DNA of 64,000 nucleotides from Polytrichum commune (lineage: Eukaryota > Streptophyta > Polytrichopsida > Polytrichales > Polytrichaceae). Shown one piece after another: positions 8,878 through 46,757 of this stretch (the stretch's first letter is position 1; every line of letters starts with the position of its first letter). The notes under the pieces were generated by a model. It did not search any database and was not told the DNA's origin. It saw nothing but the letters and a program-made list of their open reading frames with translations. The stretch lies in assembly GCA_950295325.1 (NCBI GenBank), contig OX485803.1:7192001-7256000 (forward strand), in the 5' to 3' direction. The position numbers and the translations under genes were made by a program.

Positions 8878-9700
8878 TGATGACCAATAATTGATCGACT
8901 TGTTGCCAAAATGTGTCTTGAACCGAGAAACAGAAAATAAGATGGTCATTATTGAAGAAATAGTGAGCATACTTCAATTAACTCAAATGCCTCTGAATAA
9001 ACGACAAAAGGAAAAATTCCCTTTGCGATCCCCCGGGAACTTGTTTGGGCTACACGGAATTGGGTAAAATCCCTGAAAGTGACTTGCCACTGTCAAGTGA
9101 GAAACAGAAAATTAGATGATCACGATTGAAGAAAATAGTGAGCACGCTTCCATTAACTCAAAGGCCTCTGAATAAACGACAAACAAAATACACTTTGTGT
9201 TTGCAGGGAAGTTGTTTGGGCTACACGGAATCGGGTAAAATCTGTGAAAGCGACTCGCTAAAACATGTCAAACCAAGAGAAAAAACAAATGATCATGATT
9301 GAAGAAAATAGCAAGCATGCTCCAATTGACTCAAAGGCCTCTGAATTAACCCAATAATAAGCACATGAAATATTTAGTCAGATAAATAATAAATAAAATA
9401 AAACAAAATAAAATTATGTTCCCAAGGGAACTTGTTTGGGCTACACGGAATCGGGTAAAATCTGTGAAAGCGACTCGCTAAAACATGTCAAACCGAGAGA
9501 AAAAACAAATGATCATGATTGAAGAAAATAGCAAGCATGCTCCAATTGACTCAAAGGCCTCTGAATTAACCCAATAATAAGCAGATGAAATATTTAGTCA
9601 GATAATTAATAAATTAAATAAAACAAAACAAAATTCTGTTCCCCAGGGAACTTGTTTGGGCAACACGTAATCGGGTAAAAAATCCTGAAAGTAACCCGGA
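8878..9700. repeat. Tandem array with 171- then 220-bp periods
   Basis: The landmark TTGTTTGGGCTACACGGAAT begins at 9041, 9212 and 9432, and a variant at 9652, giving periods of 171, 220 and 220 bp. The two 220-bp units are nearly identical. A degenerate first unit starts near 8878. Each unit contains GCCTCTGAATWAAC and a short A+T-rich tract; the growth from 171 to 220 bp is an insertion of the AAATAAATAAAA-type tract. No coding frame runs through the units. Confidence 0.9.
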
Positions 9701-30813: not shown

Positions 30814-32108
30814 CTATAGGAAAAGCCAATGTCTCCTTGTGAATAATTTCATTTTTGTGATCCATTTCAAACCGAGTCGAGCTCTCAACCTCTCGAATGT
30901 AACTATGCCCAATGGCTTACTCAAAATGACAGTCAATTGGTCTCTAGTAGAAACATAATCTAGAGTAACTCGACCTAACTCCATTTTTTCTCGAATGAAA
31001 TGGTGTCTAACATCCACATGTTTTGTCTGGGAGTGAATAATTGGGTTGGGAACTAGTAACATATTTCCCTGATTCTCGCAAAAATCATTATTCGAGTTGT
31101 GCCTTGCAATACTTGAATTTCTTGGAGTAGCATGCGCAACCATATGGCATGTTTCATACATTTTGTAAGTGCCATGTATTCAGCTTCGGTTGAAGAGAGT
31201 GTTGATGTAGTTTGGTTTTTATTGTTCCAGGTAATGGGTGCCTCTCTCAACCTAAAAAGATATCATGTTGTGGATTTTCTATCATGTGAATCTCATGCCT
31301 AGTCTGCATGTACATGTCTAGTTAAGATGTATGAATCTCCTTGTTTGTAGCACAAACCTAGGTTCGTGGTCCCCTTTAGATATCTAAAGATGTCTTTAAC
31401 TACTAGCGTATGAGGTACTTTAGGTTGGTTCATGTATCTACTAACAATGCTAAGTAAATAAGCTATGTCAAGTCTAGATTGAATTAAATAGATAAGTTTC
31501 CCCACCATTCTTTCATATAGTTTTGCATCAACATAGGGTTGCTCCACATTTATCTTAAATTTAGTCCCTTCCAACATAGGAATGGGGGAAGGATTGTAGT
31601 CAATGAATCCAAAGTCCTCCAATGTAGTTGTTATATACCTCCTTTGAGTCATAGTAATTTCACACTCATGAAATATAAACTCAATTGCTAGTGAGTGAGA
31701 GAGAATTCCTAGGTCTATCATAGAGAATCGGTTTTTGATTTCTTCTTGTAACTAATTGATTTTCTCAACATGTCACCAATCATATAGAGATCATCTACGT
31801 ACATAATGAATATAGTTATTCTCCTTCCTTCTTTAGAATAATAGAGATTGTAGTCAACATATGATTTTAACAACCCTTTCTCACTTAGAAAGGAATCTAT
31901 GTTACTATACCAAGCTACGGGGGCTTGCTTAAGCCCATAAAGAGCCTTAAGAAGCTTGCATACACGTTCTTTTTTCCTTGGCCCTTTGGTTGCTTGGTAT
32001 AGAGATCACAAATAATGTCTCCGTTGAGAAATGCAGTGACTACATCCAAATGAATTTTTTTTCACCCCATGTGAGCAACTAGAGCCATTGATGTGCATAG
32101 AGTGTTCC

Positions 32109-33330
32109 TATGAGCCCAAAATGGTTGCTCATATTTGTTTTATGTTTAGAACTTATTTAGAATTGCATTTGAGGTCATTATTGAAATATCAAAAAGTATA
32201 AAAAGAGTGAGGCTTGGTGTGGATTTATGTTTTAGGCCTTAAGCCTATTTTGTGTGGTTAATTAGAAGCTTAGTGGCATTAGAGAGTGTGTTGGTTAAGT
32301 AAGTAGTGTTTGATGAAGCAAGGGGAAGGTCCTTCGGTTTAAGTGTTTGAATTGGGATCTATCTTGTTGGTTTAGGGGGTGAGGGTTTAGTGGATAGGAT
32401 AAGGTCCTACTAAGTAGGAGAGGGTTAAAGGGTTTGTGGTTTTGGGTGCCCTCTCCTCCTCTTCTTTCCTCTCTTCTTTTTTTCTCTCTCTCTCTCTCTA
32501 GGAAGTTGAGCTCTTAGAGCTCGGAAAAAAATGTGGGAATTAGGTAGGGGACTTAGTAGAATTAATGGAATTAGGAAGGGGAATTAGGTAGGGGACTTAG
32601 TAGGAATTAGTTAGGAGCGGCTGGGATTAGTGCTACTACTAAGGCTCTCGGACTGCTGGGATTAATGCTGGAGCAAGGCTCTCAGACTGCTGGGATTAAT
32701 GCTGGAGCAAGAGCTCTCGGACTGCTGGGATTAATGCTGGAGCAAGGCTCTCGGACTATTGGGATTAATGCTGGAGCAAGAGCTCTCGGACTGCTGGATT
32801 AGTTCTACTGCTAAGGCTCTCGGACTGCTGGGATTAATGCTGGAGCAAGAGCTCTCGGACTGCTGGATTAATGCTACTCCTAAGGCTCTCGGACTGTTGG
32901 GATTAATGCTGGAGCAAGGCTCTCTGACTGTTGGATTAGTGCTACTGCTAAGGCTCTCGGACTACTGGGATTAATGTTGGGATTAATGCTGGAGCCGGGT
33001 ATGGGCCAGGTATGGGCCGGGTAGGGCCAAGGGCCAAGGGCTAAGGTCTTAAGGGGGATTTTGCTCCACAATTAGAGGGTGGTCTGGGGGGTGAGCTTTT
33101 GGTAGTGAGTGAGGGTTGGTGTGTAAATTAGTGTAGGGGGAAGGGGATAGATAGGGAAGAGCACTTTTCAATGCTTGTACTCTCATTATGGAATAAATTG
33201 GTGTGCAAGAATTGATGGGAATTGAAATGGAGCTTTACTAGTTGGTAAGAGGGAGCTATGCGAACATGAATGTGATACCCATTCCCTCACCCGGACTAGG
33301 ACGCTTAAGGGTGGGCGGTTTGGCCTCACA
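32109..33330 (+). mobile_element. Solo-LTR-like insertion with 5-bp target duplication
   Basis: The insertion is 1222 bp, begins TATGAG and ends CTCACA, that is, near-canonical TG...CA ends with short inverted repeats and one G-to-A change. It is flanked by GTTCC at 32104-32108 and 33331-33335. The flanks are adjacent parts of one copia reverse transcriptase frame on the minus strand. A TATA-like TATAAAAAG lies at about 32199, a CT-rich leader at 32480-32500, and an AATAAA at about 33192, fitting LTR promoter and polyadenylation signals on plus. There is no internal coding region or second LTR, so I read it as a solo LTR or a very small non-autonomous LTR element. Confidence 0.75.
32630..32996 (+). 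repeat. Minisatellite inside the solo LTR, two alternating monomers
   Basis: Units of about 33-36 bp begin GCTCTCGGACTGCTGG. One type continues GATTAATGCTGGAGCAAG, the other ATTAGTGCTACTGCTAAG. About ten units alternate irregularly. A GGGCC-rich short repeat (GGTATGGGCC and GGGCCAAGGG) follows at 32996-33045. A chance frame through it is repetitive for the same reason. Confidence 0.85.
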
Positions 33331-34666: not shown

Positions 34667-34700
34667 ATTTCACTCCAATAAACCACAACAACACGATATT

Positions 34701-34741
34701 CAATATTTTGAGAGAGTAGGATCCTCTCAAAATAATATTGG
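34701..34741. repeat. Imperfect hairpin
   Basis: CAATATTTTGAGAG and CTCTCAAAATAATATTG form two arms around a GGATCC-containing loop. Confidence 0.75.
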
Positions 34742-34745
34742 CCAT

Positions 34746-34779
34746 TTATCAACCTAAAAGTCATGTTAGGTTGATAAAT
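34746..34779. repeat. Perfect hairpin
   Basis: TTATCAACCTAA and TTAGGTTGATAA are exact reverse complements separated by eight bases. The TTAGGTTGA core is shared with the monomers of the neighbouring fold-back element. Confidence 0.85.
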
Positions 34780-34800
34780 ACTAGATTATACTTTAGACGT

Positions 34801-35249
34801 GTAGTTTCCATTAAAATGAGAGTATGTTAAGCTGGGAAATCGACTCATTTAGGTTGAGTCGACCTAAATGAGGACAATATTTTGTCAATTTAGGTTGAGT
34901 CGACCTAAATGAGAACATTATGTTGTCAATTTAGGTTGAGTCGACCTAAATGAGGACAATTATGTTAGTCAATTTAGGTTGAGTTGACCTAAATGAGGAC
35001 ACTATGTTAGTCAATTTAGGTTGAGTCGACCTAAATGACGACATTATGTTGTCAATTTAGGTTGGGTCGACCTAAATGAGCACAATATTTTGTCAATTTA
35101 GGTTGAGTCGACCTAAATGAGGACATCATGTTGTCAATTTAAGGTTGAGTCGACCTAAATGAGGACAATTATGTTAGTCAATTTAGGTTGAGTCAACCTA
35201 AATGAGTCGATTTCCCATCTTAACATACTCTCATTTTAATGGAAACTAC
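34801..35249. mobile_element. Fold-back element made of nine palindromic monomers
   Basis: The element is 449 bp. Its outer arms (34801-34865 and 35185-35249) are reverse complements with about three mismatches in 65 bp, starting GTAGTTTCCATTAAAATGAG. Between and including them are about nine tandem monomers of 41-43 bp. Each contains TTAGGTTGAGTCGACCTAA, a near-perfect palindrome centred on a SalI-type GTCGAC half-overlap, joined by GAGGACAATNTTNTGTCAA-like spacers. There is no coding capacity and I could not find a target duplication. It can fold as a whole and monomer by monomer. Confidence 0.85.
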
Positions 35250-36200
35250 GGCGGAATTTACGGCGGAAAATAAAATGTTATTTTTTTACTTGTACTCTAC
35301 AACTTTCTAGTGGTTTTCACTTCATTCTTGGATTAATAGTTTGCTTTATGTACTCTCAATTCACTGGAAAACTCTCATTTTAATGAATATTGTGTTCAAC
35401 ATACAAGCCTTTTATCAAGATCATGCACTTGAGAGTCCATGTGTTGTGACTTGTTCCACGTATGAGGCGATTTGTGATGACTTCAAAGTTTTATGTGAAA
35501 GGTGATCCATAATCTTTAATATCTTCAATAAGTTGTTTCCTTAAAAGTTACTTTGAGCTTGTATATGTGGTTGTTTGGTATCAAATTTTCCATTAAATTT
35601 TGAGTTATGTTGTGCAAATCTGTTGCAGGTTATGCGGAGAGCTCAGTAAGTGAGCTGGAAGTATGCTTCCTTGCTTGCATTCTCATGGATGCATTCGGTT
35701 TTGTTTACCCTCAGTATTGGATGGCAGCTAGTGTCGATGAGTCCTTTGATTGTCACCTGGTTGTGATGGGCACCTGAAGCCACATGGAACCACAAACCAT
35801 GTGAAGACATTGGATCATGTATGTCAATTGATACATGGAATTGTTAAATCGACCATGTAGTTTGTGAGATGCATTGTGACGCACTGTGAGATGACAAGAC
35901 TTGTCAATATTTGATTTTTCGTTGCACATATGAAGAGCAAGATATCAACTCTATGTTAGAATTAATAAACTTGGTCAACTTGGATGACTAGTTAAAGTCT
36001 AGTCGACACCTTATATATTCACTTTGGTCGTTTTAACCAATGTGTGGTCGGTTTGACAATCCCCTTGATATATTGGATATGCATGCATCTCTATTTAAAT
36101 TGACTACGAAGTCTTACTCCGAGGCTAAGAGGAAACAGTGAGGAATGAGAGTTGATGTGGCCTCATAATAATGTCTCCCGAGGCTTCACACTCAATACTA
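35250..36200. other. Intergenic DNA, nothing recognised
   Basis: A short echo of the fold-back element's arm (ACTCTCATTTTAATG) occurs at about 35366. No gene is supported. Confidence 0.5.
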
Positions 36201-39490: not shown

Positions 39491-42055
39491 CACCAAAAAC
39501 CATAACTAAACATAGAACACATAGCCCTAGCACTAACCACACAGTCCACCTATGAAAGTAGGCACTAAACCACCCCACTCTCATAGTCACGTAGACATGA
39601 GAGGGAGGCAGCGAACATACATCGCATGTCAAAGAAAAAAACTTTGACACCCTTTTTGCCTTTTCTTTTCTACTCCCATACTAACATGAAAGGTGATCTA
39701 CCCCCGAAACCACCAACTTGTTTGTGGTACAAAATTGATGCACCAAGGTTGCTTCAACATCATTTGTTCGCATTCATAAAGATCAACGAATTTGTCATCG
39801 AAGCAATTAATGCTTGGTTGCGTTGAAGACGAGTGGACTTGTAGCTCTCTCTCTCTCTCTATGAAGAACAAAATCTAGAATCGGATGTCACCTCGCCTCA
39901 TCTGCCAATGGTGGTTGGCATGCATGCTCATCAATTCCACAAGCTTCATGACTTCACAAACGATGTTGCTTACGACAACACGGAAAAGTAGTCTGGTTCT
40001 TCTATGTCCGGGGAGAAACTGGCAGTTACTTGCAGATGAATCGGTTGCGTTTGAGAAATAAATGGTTGAAGTTCAAGACTTCAGGAAATTTACCGATCAT
40101 TTTAGAGGAATCTATAGAATATACCCCAACTGAATAAAGCAAATCCGGAAGATGGCAACATGTAACCAGTTGGATTTAGAATCACTAGGATCTTGACCAA
40201 CTATATATGCCCAAAAACTTCCCGGGCACTAGTCTGGTTGTGTTCAAAGAGATTTGGTTTGATTTGGTAGGGTTATTCGTATGTTCATTGTTGTTGTGGT
40301 GAATTTTGCAATAAGTTTCGGAGATATGTAATTTTGTGTGAGGCTATAGCATGTTAGGTAGCGTCGTCCACATACATGAGGTACAAATTGTCAACACTTG
40401 AAAATTTTGTTTTTTCAAATTGTTTTGGAGTTGTAGCCAAACATTTTAGGTCATATCCACAAGAACGTCAGTTGTATCACTTGTATCACCAACCACAGGC
40501 ACCGATTTCTTGAAATTATGAAGCCACATAATTTATATCTATTGTATGAGTTGGCGGCTTATGATCGAGGTGAAGCATCCCTCATTCATGCCACCTTCTT
40601 CTCTTTAAATAAACAAAATCCGAAAGGGTCAATTTTTTTCACACGGGCCCCACACAACAGTGCCATCCAAGCTAAACATATGTTAATCAATACGAATTTC
40701 AAAAATTATGAGGAAATTACCTATGGCCGTGATTTAGATTTACTGCTCATTTGGCGCCAATCACATGCATCATACCCTACGAGTAGCAGGTGCAAAATTA
40801 AAAACGTGTTAGTGAACGGTGCCATGATAGTCAATAGATTAAGTACATTGATTATCCCAACGAGTACATGTTACTATTCGGAGTTACGCAGTGCAACCAC
40901 ATCTTACTCAAGAGTTCATTTTATCACTTAACAAAAGTTTGTTAAGTTGCTTGGACGTTATATAACATGAATGACTTTACTTGATAAAATATTCCGTTCC
41001 CATTAAATAGTTATGGCACTCGGTAACTCCGAATAGCAACACACACTAATTGGGGTAAGCAGTGTAGTGGATAAGTTTCTCACTGGTGCCATGATGGCAT
41101 GACTTGGACAATCTCTTCTAGAAAGTCGGCTCTCATATCACTCCATCTTGTCAAAGTAACTGTACATTTGACCCAGCTAAATAGGCCACGCAACATAACA
41201 TGAGTTGTTTGTCAATTTGAAGATCTACATTGTTTTCTCTAATTAGTGTGGGTTACCAATTGAAGTTACGTGTTGCTATACTTTTAATTGAGAGTATTAT
41301 TATTTTTACCCAAACAACATAAGTACATTGTTTTGTCTAATTAGTGTGGGTGGGAAATTCATGTGGGATGGGATTCGGTGTGGTCCATATCAATTTTATA
41401 GTACTTGCCTTGCCTTGAATTTTCATCCACAAATGCATAAGAAAAATCCCGCACTAATTTTTCACAATGGGCCACTTCAAATTATAAACATAAACAATGT
41501 GGGTAATTGGGAATTAATGTGACACACACCAATTAAACAAAAAAATTAAACTATGTAGTTAGTATGCACACTAAAGAATATGATATAACTTAATTGGTGA
41601 AAAAACAATAATGTCAATAAAAAGTTATAGCAACTGCCAACAGGTAACTCCAAATGGTAGCCCCACACTAATTAGACAAAATAGTGTAGTTATCTTATTG
41701 AATATCAACTTATTGTGTGCGGGTTACAAGCATCGATTTATAATAACTAAACTAAATATGATATTTAGTGTCACTTACTATATGGAATTACACTTTACTC
41801 TTTTTATTACTATTAATGTGATTTTTGTACCAAGTAGAGATGTTAATGCTCCACAATGTCCAAAAAACCAATTCAACCTTTTGAGTAAATATTGAGATGT
41901 ACATGACATGATTATAGCATTGCATAATTTCAAATAGTAAGTGTCACTAAAGATCATATTTACAGTACTATCCACTAAAGAAAAGAGTGTAGATTCCTCA
42001 TTACGAGTGTGGCCCACAATATTTGTTGTGATTTGTGGGACCACACAAACGCCAA
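39491..42055. other. Intergenic DNA, nothing recognised
   Basis: A 137-codon frame at 40518-40931 overlaps a partial reverse family-D fragment (about 40690-40830) and is not considered a gene. AGTGTGG-type repeat motifs recur at 41240-42030. Confidence 0.5.
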
Positions 42056-42520
42056 AAATATCCGGATTGGCATTTTTAAATGCCTAATCCGGTTTTGTCC
42101 GGATGACCCTAGTATCGTCCAGGGATTCTGTGAAGTGTAGGAGTTCTAGAACTATCCGTACCCGCTTATCTTCTACTCCTTAGCCGAATTTCCGGAAACC
42201 CCGATTTCCGGACTTTCGGGCTTTTGGACACTCTTCTTCTTCCGGAGTTTGCCTTTCCGGATTATATCTCTAGGTCATAATTATAATACTCACCCCTCTG
42301 ATCTAGATTTACCCCTCTACATTCTACCCTCTAGAATAGGTGATTTCTTCCGGTGAAGACGTCCCTTATAAGATTGGGATCCGGGTCTTCCCTCACAACC
42401 AATCCGGATTGGCCAAATCCGTCTTGGCAGGTCACACAGGGAGATCCGGATTATATCTTAGGACCACAACGACCGGAGTATTCCAGATTCCAACCGGAGA
42501 TCTGACTCGACGGGATAAGT

Positions 42521-42968
42521 GGGTGATCCATACCACTTTCCGGATTGTCCCGTCCACAAGCGGTGAGACCTCTTCAGAAGATCAGTTTGGCGCAAGTCCG
42601 GATCCCTTCCGGATCTTTGCCCAGTCCTCCCCACGGCTATCTCACCTAGACGTAACCCAGACATCCGGACCAATGAGGTTCCCTTCCCGCTACACTCCGG
42701 AGACGGCCTCCAACATGGAATCCTAACTGTTCCGGTCCTTCCCTCCTCCTTCTGACGGATCGATCCGGCTACCACTTCCTGGGATTCTACTCAATCTGAG
42801 CTAACTGGGTGATCCGTACCACTTTCCGGATTGGTCCGTCTAAGGGCGGTGGGACCTCTTCAGAAGCTCGGATGGCGCAAGTCCGGATCTCGCCCAATCC
42901 TCCCAACGGCTATCCCACCTAGACGTTACTCAACCATCCGGAATAGTGAGGTTTCCCTCCCACTACAC
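42521..42968 (+). repeat. Direct repeat, offset 286 bp
   Basis: About 42521-42697 and 42807-42968 align along their length, both starting GGGTGATCCRTACCACTTTC and sharing GACCTCTTCAGAAG, GGCGCAAGTCCGGATC and CACCTAGACGT. Identity is moderate, so the duplication is not recent. Confidence 0.85.
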
Positions 42969-43444
42969 ACAGAGAGGATCCGCAAGGCAATAACTAGTTC
43001 TGATCAGGGTCTCTTCTCCTCTGCCCTATCCGGAACTCCTATCCACTCATGCTCTCCCTCCTCCGCTAACAATCTCATAATCATTCGTACGCAAAATCAA
43101 ACAAGGATAGTCAAGGAGTGAGAGATCAAAAAAGAATTTTTTAGAGTAGGAGCAATAAAAAAAAACAATGGAGAAGAGACCCTTCTCCAACTCCTTATTC
43201 AGCCTTAACTAGAGGCCCCTAAATCCCTAAACTGAGGGCGGCGGCCCTGGCGGCCGCCGCTAAGAAAACCCTAACTGCTTCCGTCCTCCCAGATTTCCCG
43301 GATCAAGATCCGGATTTTCCGCTGACAAAACCCCAGGGAGATTTTTATTCCTCATCTTCAAAAACTCCTAAGTCCTATCTTCCTACCTCTATTCTGCCTA
43401 ACTAATCTAGTTACCATCCTAAGCTAAGAAGAGCGGTGCTTCTT

Positions 43445-45460
43445 CTAAGCTGCTCCCTCCTTCGAATGGCTGTCGAGTCCACTGACGACGGATGAGCCCC
43501 CTCCCGGCGACGCCTTCTGTAGCCGCGTAAGCATCCTTCTCATGTTCGGAGAAGGGGCAATCTCATCCTCCGAGTCCACTGCTCCTTCGGTCCGCGGTGT
43601 TCCGGAAACTGTATTTCCCTTCCGGATGCTCCAGATCGGGGAAAGATCGCTTCCGGTGCGCTGTTCCGGATTTTGTCCGCCCGAGATCGAGGCAGTCCGC
43701 GGATCCATGTTGGAGGCCGCCCTTGAGGGTGGCGGAGGGAATGGGCTAACCATTTGGCAGTCCGGAGGAGACGACGGCGAGGCTTGGGTCATAGGGGCCT
43801 TACCCCTACTCGGAGTTGCCTCTCGATCCGAAGTCTGGTGCCTTATCGGCGTCCTAGCTCTATCCGGAGTCCGGGACCGATCCGAGGTCCGCGGAACAGG
43901 GGACTGACCTCATCCGGATTTAACAGACCCGGTGCTCTTCCGCCTCACCTAGGGAGAGCGGATCCTCTCCGGAGCTCTTCCGAAACTAGCAGGCCGAGAG
44001 CCGCCTCCCTGCTGGTTGGGTCCTGCAGATGTTGGCGGATTCTGGACCAGGGCAACTTCACCAACCACCTCGTAGAGGGTTCCGGTTGGTGACCCAGGCG
44101 GACCCGGATAGAGTACCCGCCGGGGTGTTCCGCTTGGCGGAACCACCTTCTGGATTTCCGCCAGGAGATCCTTCATCGTCCGTGAGTATTTCACGAGGAT
44201 GGGGAGGGTCTGCCTAGCGGAAGCGGGTTCTCCGGACTCCATCATCCGGTCGTAGAGATGCGCCTTGTTGACGATCTCTGCCGGATGCCCCACCAGCTCC
44301 CGGATCCGACTGAAGACCAATGCCTGCTCCGCGTGGTACTTCCGGATCTCCTCGCTCTTCTGACTCAGCTCCTGAGTCATGGCCGCTACCTGCGCGGTGA
44401 GGTGAGCATTCTCCGTCTTGGCTTGCTCGAGCTCCTTCATGTCCGCCCTCTTTGCCAACTCCCGGAGAATATTTCCGGGTCCGCAGTCGTCCAGGGCCTG
44501 GTTCGCTCCTCGGACAATGTGTTCTAGCTGGTAGTACTGGTTCTGCAGGTCCTCCAACCCCTCCTGGACCCGCTTGAAGGGATTTTCCGGAAAGTCCCAA
44601 GCGGAGAGATCCACATTCCGCCAAGTGGTCTCCCGGTTGGGTCCGGCTTCCGGATGATAATGAGGGGGGAGGGAGAGCTTGGCCTCTGGAGGGTCGGCGG
44701 CGGGCTTCCGGGTGAAGAGGGAGGCGCTTCCGGTATGATGGGGTCGCTGGAAGTCTCCGTCTCGAGGTCTTCAACTTCCGGATGGAGCTTGTAGGTGACC
44801 TCGTCCGCTGCTATCGTCAGCAGGTCCTCCTCCTCGGCCGTGATACAGTCAAAGTGCTGATAGAGGTGCAGAATGAAGGGGGAGAGGAAGGAGGGTTTCC
44901 GGCCTATATGGGGGAGGGCCCGCCCTACTATCTCTTGAATTATCAACCCCCAATTCACGGGCCGGACTCCGGACATAGCACCGAACAGGGTGTTAGCCAT
45001 GGTAAGGCTAATACGCTTAGGCTTGTCCGGGTTAAGGATGGGCAAGAGGAATTCTAACACCCTCCGCTCTCTAAGGTTCCGGCAGTTCCCGGGGTGGAAG
45101 CCGTCCTTCGGGTCCGCGTCCCCTCTAAATTTTCCGGCGAGCAGGCCATCGCGGCGGCCGGCCCATCCCTCTGCAATTCCCCTCGGGAACCCGTAGACCC
45201 TATTCCAAACATCCGGAGTCCAACTATCCGGATCCCTCCTCTTGGTCCTAGCCACTGATTATCTCTCTCGAACTTGAACTCCCGGAGGGTATCTTCCGCT
45301 CGGAGGTTCCAGGGTTTGGCGAGCAACCCGCGCAACCCATAACCCGGAGATCCTCCGCTAGCTCCTGGAGCTCCCCGTCCTCCCTCGGAATTGCGGGGAT
45401 GAGGGCTTTTAGCGGAACCGGGATGGGTTCCCTCCGATCCTCTTCCCGTGCTTCCGGCAT
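43445..45460 (-). pseudogene. Frameshifted gag-like / plant-transposon-type protein gene
   Basis: Reading leftward from the ATG at 45460: segment A (to about 45340, MPEAREEDRREPIPVPLKAL), segment B (to about 45250, KPWNLRAEDTLREFKFERDN), segment C (to about 44640, DVWNRVYGFPRGIAEGW, then ILNPDKPKRISLTMANTLFG and KPSFLSPFILHLYQHF), segment D (to 43949, a coiled coil with KELEQAKTENAHLTAQVAAM). Segment E runs in the same frame as D past stops at 43949 and 43916, is Ser/Arg/Pro-rich, and ends at 43445. Three frameshifts and two stops imply decay. Segment C resembles the plant domain annotated as putative plant transposon protein (Transposase_32-like), found fused to retroelement polyproteins; that assignment is from pattern memory. 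No protease, RT or integrase follows. Confidence 0.6.
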
Positions 45461-45535
45461 TTTCCTCTCTTCTCTCAACTTCCGTCTCAACTACGGAAAC
45501 TCTCTCCCCTCCGGATACCCTCTCTTCCGCTCAAC

Positions 45536-45614
45536 TACTACGGAGTCCCGGCAAGCCAACTGCCGGTGACTGGAAATTACGGAGTCCCAGCAATCCAACT
45601 GCCGGCGGCTCGAG
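45536..45614. repeat. Tandem duplication, 39-bp period
   Basis: Two adjacent units begin TACGGAGTCCCRGCAAKCCA and include ACTGCCGGYG. They lie in the leader of the gag-like gene. Confidence 0.75.
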
Positions 45615-45688
45615 AAAAAAACAGCCTCACCACTCGTTCTCTCGACAATTTTTCTTCTTGCAAAAAGTGGAGAGGAGAAGGAAGGGAC

Positions 45689-45890
45689 CCTTAAATATCC
45701 TTCCCCCCTCTTCCTTCCCCTTATACCGTTAGGGTTTAACGGAAAACGGTTGCCAACCGTTTTCCAACGGTTTTACCCCAACCGCCATAAGTCCGTTGTA
45801 ACCGCCACTTCCGGACCGTTGGTGAATCTTGGCATAACCGTTACTAGGTCCGGACCATTGATCCAACGGTCCCCCCTAGTCCAATTTGCC
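45689..45890 (-). promoter_or_regulatory. Putative promoter of the gag-like gene
   Basis: On the minus strand, GGATATTTAAGGG (45689-45702) is a TATA-like box about 230 bp upstream of the ATG at 45460. Upstream of it (45725-45885) are at least eight AACGG/CCGTT cores, several in palindromic pairs, and a telobox-like AAACCCTAA at 45729-45737. AACGG is the core bound by MYB proteins, including three-repeat MYBs at mitosis-specific elements. The cluster lies where a plant promoter would be, but activity is inference. Confidence 0.5.
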
Positions 45891-46757
45891 GGACCGGTAA
45901 TAATACCCTTTTTATCATTTTTATCGTGCGAGGCGGATTTAGAACGCCTTATTTTCTAGAACAATTAATTTTAACCTAAGAGACCCTATTATCCCTATAT
46001 GAGCATGGTAAAATATGGAAAATGGATCCATATTTCCATATTTTCATATTTTCGTAGAATAGTGGGCTCCCACATGATCAGTGAAGACAAATTTCCAAAA
46101 AAGTGGCACCTTTGTACATGGATATGTGCAATTATGTTGCCCATCCTAACTCATTGACATTCCACACTATTTTGAATATTTACTACCACAGTAACAAGAT
46201 ATTGTTTAATATAATTGTTGTGGGGTTGAATAGTAGACAATGTTATAAGTTGTTTGTAATCTAATATTGACTCAAAGTGATTTGCAAACATAACAATATT
46301 CACATCCATAACATTGTTATGTGGGACTAACAATATTCCATAGAATAATCTCCACGTTCAATATGAATGCAACCTAATAACTTCTGTTCGCCAAGACAAT
46401 TTAGTATAGAATTCTCAGTTCTTTGTAAAACCTTTTATTGGATGCTTTTGAAATGTGTCCTGTTAAAAGCGGAGGAGGTGTAATAAGTACCCGGTGTTGG
46501 TGCAAATGCCATTTCTCCTCAACTAGGACAAGGACCTTAAGAATTCCACCTCACCTCCTATATGGTAACCACCTCCACCACCTTCTACACATTCAACCTT
46601 TTGAAAAGTCCACTTTTTGAAGTATAGCTCTAGTGCTACCTTCCATTTTTGGCATACCTGGGAAAAAGGAACCTCCAAGCATCATCAGTGACAATCGAGA
46701 AATCATCCCATCTTCTTGGTAAATTTACATGGGAGAGAGGGCAACATGGTACACTCT

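Follow-up and report, generated by a model that had tools for sequence, protein, structure and literature searches.

A fold-back MITE with a variable array of palindromes in Polytrichum commune, probably a deletion derivative of a larger DUF7869-bearing transposon

Structure of the element

We analyzed a stretch of 64,000 nucleotides of Polytrichum commune DNA (assembly GCA_950295325.1, contig OX485803.1, positions 7,192,001 to 7,256,000 of the forward strand), referred to here as the window; positions given without a contig are those of the window. It contains a 449-bp fold-back, which forms the internal core of a 707-bp transposon at 34690–35396, with the following features.

34686–34689: left target-site duplication (TSD), CAAC
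34690–35396, plus strand: whole non-autonomous DNA transposon (MITE), 707 bp, delimited by the limits of homology among the fetched copies and by the TIRs and 4-bp TSD in complete copies
34690–34702, plus strand: left TIR AACACGATATTCA, 13 bp
34690–34800, plus strand: left module m5, also found, with identities of about 89% and 79%, at one end of the two large relatives that bear DUF7869
34744–34779: subterminal hairpin ATTTATCAACCTAA / TTAGGTTGATAAAT, with TTAGGTTGA common to hairpin and monomer
34801–34869, plus strand: left fold-back arm, 46 bp plus the first palindrome
34836–34841: putative deletion junction, matching the large element's left end leftward (to GGAATC) and its palindrome zone rightward (from GAAATC)
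34847–35203, plus strand: array of nine palindromes, starting at 34847, 34888, 34929, 34972, 35014, 35055, 35096, 35137 and 35181
35181–35249, minus strand: right arm, an inverted copy of the left arm, missing from asymmetric copies
35250–35396, plus strand: right module m3, whose terminal part repeats the motif ACTCTCATTTTAATG, present in both arms too
35384–35396, minus strand: right TIR, 13 bp, TGAATATTGTGTT (equal to AACACAATATTCA on the minus strand)
35397–35400: right TSD, CAAC

The inverted arms, the tandem array and the nine palindromic monomers described in a sequence-only reading of this DNA were all recovered, with arms measuring 69 nt (34801–34869 and 35181–35249, 96% complementary). 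That reading had also taken the 449-bp unit to be bounded by its arms, which proved incorrect: the sequence beyond the left arm is common to all of the first 20 loci fetched and that beyond the right arm to all 18 with a located right end, which rules out the arms as element termini and places 34801 and 35249 inside the element. Over 48 copies (L047 was left out, and L039, included among the 48, has no right arm), the 46-bp consensus of the left arm pairs at every position with that of the right arm, and the progenitor was therefore probably a perfect fold-back.

Ends, target-site duplications and copy number

The assembly searched comprises 408 Mb in 64 contigs, and the matches listed fall on contigs C1–C7, the window itself being part of C1. 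A search with an 85-bp arm query yielded 302 candidates, 40 of which were scored. The set of complete copies amounts to 49, consisting of 18 from L001–L020 (the incomplete L007 and L020 were dropped), 30 from L021–L060 (10 unrelated loci were dropped) and the copy in the window. Target duplications at the copy ends, which had been suggested as a check, are indeed present: a perfect 4-bp TSD flanks 43 of the 49 copies (41 with exactly 4 bp, one with 7 bp in a microsatellite, and L047, whose TAAA was read by eye from the flanks), and the other six (L010, L025, L030, L031, L039 and L044) match at three of the four positions. L047 (C1:59716016–59719207) carries 23 palindromes, and an insertion of about 1.6 kb splits its right module, with TAAA still on both flanks.

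The dispersed copies have TIRs at both ends, as expected of a MITE, and the element termini are of the AACACRATATTCA type, beginning and finishing with AA...TT. Across the genome, exact matches to the 13-mer end number 277 + 282, compared with 43 + 30 for the reversed pattern. The first 100 places listed all fall on C1 and include 28 neighboring inverted TIR pairs, 27 of them spaced 490–790 bp apart and one 26 kb. Lone exact 13-mer TIRs were discounted: among 14 fetched from C1 (out of 44 listed), 4 belong to the family and 10 are unrelated. Using 44-nt patterns with up to three mismatches, we found 250 left ends and 247 right ends, with no matches for the reversed controls; the arm pattern occurs at least 472 times (control 0), and the exact 23-mer palindrome 1,029 times (reversed control 0). 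These counts are mutually consistent and correspond to about 250 copies in the genome, nearly all with the fold-back; the structure is not unique to this locus, the outcome that would have refuted the sequence-only reading.

The same counts bear on the possibility that the array is an independent satellite, or a fold-back unit without a defined element. The inner arms are partly made of monomers, as such a unit would predict, but the copies share sharp common ends with TSDs, and the palindrome number is close to the prediction from the number of elements: about 1,080 exact palindromes are expected (250 copies × 6.8 palindromes × 0.64 exact) for the 1,029 found, so free satellite arrays are not required. 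We consider an independent unit extremely improbable.

The palindrome array

TRF delineates the array at 34847–35206 with a period of 41, 8.6 copies and 88% matches; the nine 23-bp palindromes of the element in the window are spaced 41–44 bp apart. The palindrome ATTTAGGTTGAGTCGACCTAAAT is an imperfect dyad with a T/G mismatch at positions 9/15, and the monomers therefore have a direction: in the 49 oriented copies, 326 of 327 23-bp palindromes read in the direction of the element, none against it, and one is undecided. Counting by alignment gave 332 palindromes in the 49 copies, 2–23 in each with a median of 6, as anticipated by the suggestion that monomer number might vary, and 211 of them match the consensus exactly.

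Most spacers belong to five types. Of the 49 arrays, 39 start with type a and 29 finish with type e; the order a-b-c-d-e is exact in L002 alone, with its steps recurring in other arrays. Spacer adjacency carries 0.62 bits of information, whereas 500 shuffles averaged 0.087 and never exceeded 0.159. Because the steps recur and the adjacency information exceeds that of the shuffles, the arrays look as though blocks of one shared order had been duplicated and lost. Outside CpG sites, divergence from the consensus is 1.2% in the palindromes and the left arm and 2.0–2.1% in the left module and the right part. These low values fit a recent burst, and the lower divergence of the palindromes may reflect homogenization of the array instead of function.

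The two commonest palindrome variants alter the single CpG, G to A in 28 cases and C to T in 17, and 46 of 49 changes at palindrome CpG sites are C to T or G to A. At the level of base pairs, 117 are altered on one side and 1 on both sides, indicating that pairing is not visibly under selection; no covariation of the palindrome halves was detected in 304 palindromes of 23 bp (L047 left out).

These patterns allow for a different account of the array within the same MITE, namely a passive minisatellite generated by hairpin slippage during replication or repair, with no role in transposition. The range of 2–23 monomers and the absence of covariation between halves are what it predicts, and four copies with only two palindromes (L012, L049, L051 and L058) keep perfect TSDs. 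On the other side stands the behavior of the palindrome in larger relatives, described below, and on balance we regard a passive array as a genuine but less favored possibility.

The sequence-only reading had further proposed that a transcript would form one long duplex or a row of short hairpins, and the former agrees with computed RNA folding: the 449 nt are predicted to adopt one long hairpin of −254.6 kcal/mol, compared with a mean of −99.65 for 100 shuffled sequences (z = −27.6). Folding this extreme would suit an array kept for regulation, either as a platform for host factors or as a source of hairpin RNA such as small RNAs or miRNA-like precursors, and the CpG decay of the palindromes fits methylation. 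Weak matches to plant miRNA precursors in Rfam also point in this direction, but all 13 matches up to E 1 fall under the gathering thresholds and were discounted; any hairpin array might reach scores of this order, for example 48.5 where the gathering score is 211. Given also that covariation is absent, a regulatory array appears unlikely.

Asymmetric copies

Searching for odd TIR extensions identified L062, a 467-bp relative without the right arm. Its middle segment, a query that itself contained one degenerate palindrome, matched all eight scored candidates, comprising L062, six more MITE-sized copies (one of which, L069, is L039) and one large locus. The seven MITE-sized copies without the right arm keep a different, "old" right segment, also found in the large relatives, and are organized as left module (partial in L070), left arm, palindromes, the different right segment and right module. 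Five of the six asymmetric copies having both ends are flanked by a perfect 4-bp TSD.

End modules diverge most in L062, L070 and L071, and these three copies are all asymmetric; the end modules of L066–L069 are no more divergent than those of symmetric copies, and in a FastTree tree of end modules L066–L069 are scattered among symmetric copies with weak support. In this tree, the long branch of L058 probably arises artificially from the deletion of its right module. Both ends of L071 are AACCTTATATTCA, and L070 has a right end of this type; the termini of this subfamily changed together, possibly reflecting altered transposase specificity. The divergent L075 and L077 have one full arm only, and L075, L076 and L077 are divergent relatives with odd arrangements, such as the two partial right modules of L075 and L077.

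Large relatives and DUF7869

Two large loci share parts with the MITE. The first (L073+L074, C1:46793800–46805400) is about 10 kb long and has a left TIR-like end AACCTGATATTCA, a left module of about 89% and a left arm of 91% identity; nearly 10 kb from this end lie palindromes together with the old right segment. The second (L084, on C5), at least 5 kb long, has a left end of this kind (79% for the module, 95% for the arm) and eight palindrome matches about 3.8–4.7 kb from that end, six of which are 145–155 bp apart. In both, the old right segment is present and the right arm absent. They also share stretches of up to 1.5 kb with 75–90% identity that do not occur in the MITE, so insertion of a MITE into an unrelated gene does not account for them.

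The large relatives weigh against a passive array, as they keep the palindrome within a different repeat of about 145–156 bp, in which the palindrome is better conserved than the remainder: comparing the L084 units with the C1 unit, 108 of 115 palindrome sites match, compared with 512 of 646 sites in the rest of the repeat, although the five units are related and the comparison is suggestive. The eight matches to the old right segment also have palindromes, but the query held a degenerate one.

Because the most divergent copies are asymmetric and the large relatives carry the old right segment, asymmetry is probably ancestral and the symmetric fold-back a later form, for which the end-module tree is too weak to serve as proof.

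Pfam identified a DUF7869 fragment in each large relative (E 4.1e-10 on C1 and 4.8e-34 on C5) and DUF7869 at two further loci (E 1.9e-44 and 1.2e-45). Pfam and NCBIfam scans of the first ORFs from the C1 relative returned no transposase family; another of its ORFs is the DUF7869 match. A 235-aa ORF of the C1 relative matches L084 with 65% identity. Reading frames are broken in both relatives and a right terminus was found in neither, so the search did not arrive at an intact mobilizing element. On C3, two right ends enclosing 8.5 kb (L061) gave the appearance of an autonomous element, but the interval consists of two MITEs in opposite orientation, and a 13-kb interval on C3 (L063/L064) showed neither a common TIR extension nor matching flanks.

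A genome search with the 235-aa ORF gave 1,690 candidates, and among the 150 scored many contain open frames of 692–1,031 aa with near-identical scores; L080 and L083 are examples of these genome-wide DUF7869-related loci. Such coding sequences may constitute a major group of transposons that was recently active in this genome. Alignment of the DUF7869 proteins revealed the acidic motifs HDKMD, QMDN and GHTHED/GHTHDD, with HNRMD in place of the first motif in the C1 relative; these motifs are possible candidates for catalytic residues. A PDB sequence search with a 670-aa DUF7869 ORF gave no matches up to E 10, and the word DUF7869 was not found in the literature searched. Two near-identical DUF7869 loci on C3, examined for element ends, gave neither ends nor a TSD because both lie inside a segmental duplication, which extends over at least 19.8 kb with 99.9% identity (C3:44.48–44.50 Mb and 44.71–44.73 Mb; L089+L087+L085 and L090+L088+L086).

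Comparison with known elements

The element is short, with TIR pairs spaced 490–790 bp apart, and shares parts with larger relatives, as is typical of MITEs derived from a larger element. Like fold-back elements of the FB/Tetris type, it has variable internal tandem repeats, but its long inverted repeats do not extend to the ends: 111 and 147 bp separate the 69-bp arms from the ends, and the terminal repeats are about 13 bp. Judged by the excerpted text of PMC10741241, the 4-bp TSD is that of Sola elements, which encode DDD transposases and are uncommon in flowering plants; by the same text, Ginger (TG...CA termini, TSD of 4–6 bp) is excluded by the AA...TT termini, PIF/Harbinger and CACTA (3-bp TSD), Mutator (7–12 bp) and hAT (8 bp) by the 4-bp TSD, and Tc1/Mariner, as described there, by a TSD length that does not fit. 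The link to Sola consists of TSD length and the acidic motifs read in the DUF7869 proteins, and we classify the superfamily provisionally as Sola-like, by TSD length, with a putative partner protein matching Pfam DUF7869.

Three known systems, each as described in excerpts of the respective source, are comparable. MtPH-A6-4, a PIF/Harbinger element of Medicago truncatula, is likewise a plant TIR element with variable internal tandem repeats, of which there are 2–35, able to nearly fill the interior, a variation ascribed to abortive gap repair (PMC2213677); it differs in its 3-bp TSD, 60-bp repeat and PIF/Harbinger transposase, compared with a 4-bp TSD, a palindromic repeat of about 41–43 bp and a DUF7869 relative here. 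Tetris of Drosophila virilis is also a non-autonomous fold-back element with variable internal tandem repeats, but has TSDs of 8–10 bp, repeats inside long TIRs and satellite-like arrays of its own, whereas the array described here lies well inside short-TIR ends and the counts need no free array (PMC4079207). The repeats of Galileo are said to hold extra transposase sites (PMC4079207). BrickBuilt of Porphyromonas gingivalis is another MITE with a minisatellite, but it is bacterial, has 19 copies in one strain and is built of 23-nt units without a spacer (PMC4596501). A literature search of titles and abstract openings found no prior description of the present element, although one may exist.

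Proposed origin and mechanism

Starting at 34799, the MITE in the window follows the left end of the large element as far as GGAATC; from GAAATC onward it corresponds to the palindrome zone of that element, and the two matches overlap at 34836–34841. In the large element, a later palindrome is followed by a spacer resembling a MITE spacer. As the junction matches both parts of the large element, we propose an internal deletion at a short overlap with subsequent amplification. A large DUF7869 transposon would have lost its interior at the GGAATC/GAAATC overlap, joining its left end to the palindrome-rich zone. As the excision gap was repaired, slippage or template switching would then have multiplied the units of palindrome plus spacer, and an inverted copy of the left arm would have overwritten the old right segment, giving the symmetric fold-back. 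This form would have been amplified, with a DUF7869 transposase mobilizing it in trans. The transposase, or a factor encoded by the element, may bind the palindromes as dyad sites, and the array would owe its instability to their hairpins.

We estimate a probability of roughly 70% for this five-step account as a whole, in which the element is a non-autonomous cut-and-paste DNA transposon (MITE), a deletion derivative moved by a DUF7869 transposase. The array would be a minisatellite prone to repair and possibly bound by the transposase, and the palindromes are plausible candidate binding sites for a dimeric protein. A broader version is offered tentatively and with considerable doubt: DUF7869 proteins might be the transposases of a large, recently active, little-described plant family with 4-bp TSDs (Sola-like), the palindrome might be their binding site, and the MITE might be a parasite that multiplied it into a tunable, hairpin-driven array.

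A single genome thus appears to hold the stages of a fold-back MITE, from the gene-bearing element through deletion, palindrome amplification and inverted duplication to the burst, connecting 4-bp target duplications to proteins known only as DUF7869. The natural series of 2–23 potential binding sites can be used to ask whether site number drives transposition.

Other features of the window

Elsewhere in the window, ORFs at 31299–32005 on the minus strand were read as fragments of a Ty1/copia-like reverse transcriptase and RNase H. Tandem arrays lie at 8928–9680 (173/220-bp units) and 32641–32980 (34/69-bp units). A G+C-rich block spans 42001–46000, with 53–57% compared with a background of mostly 34–44%, and within it three overlapping ORFs of 186–243 aa are located on the minus strand at 43949–45255.
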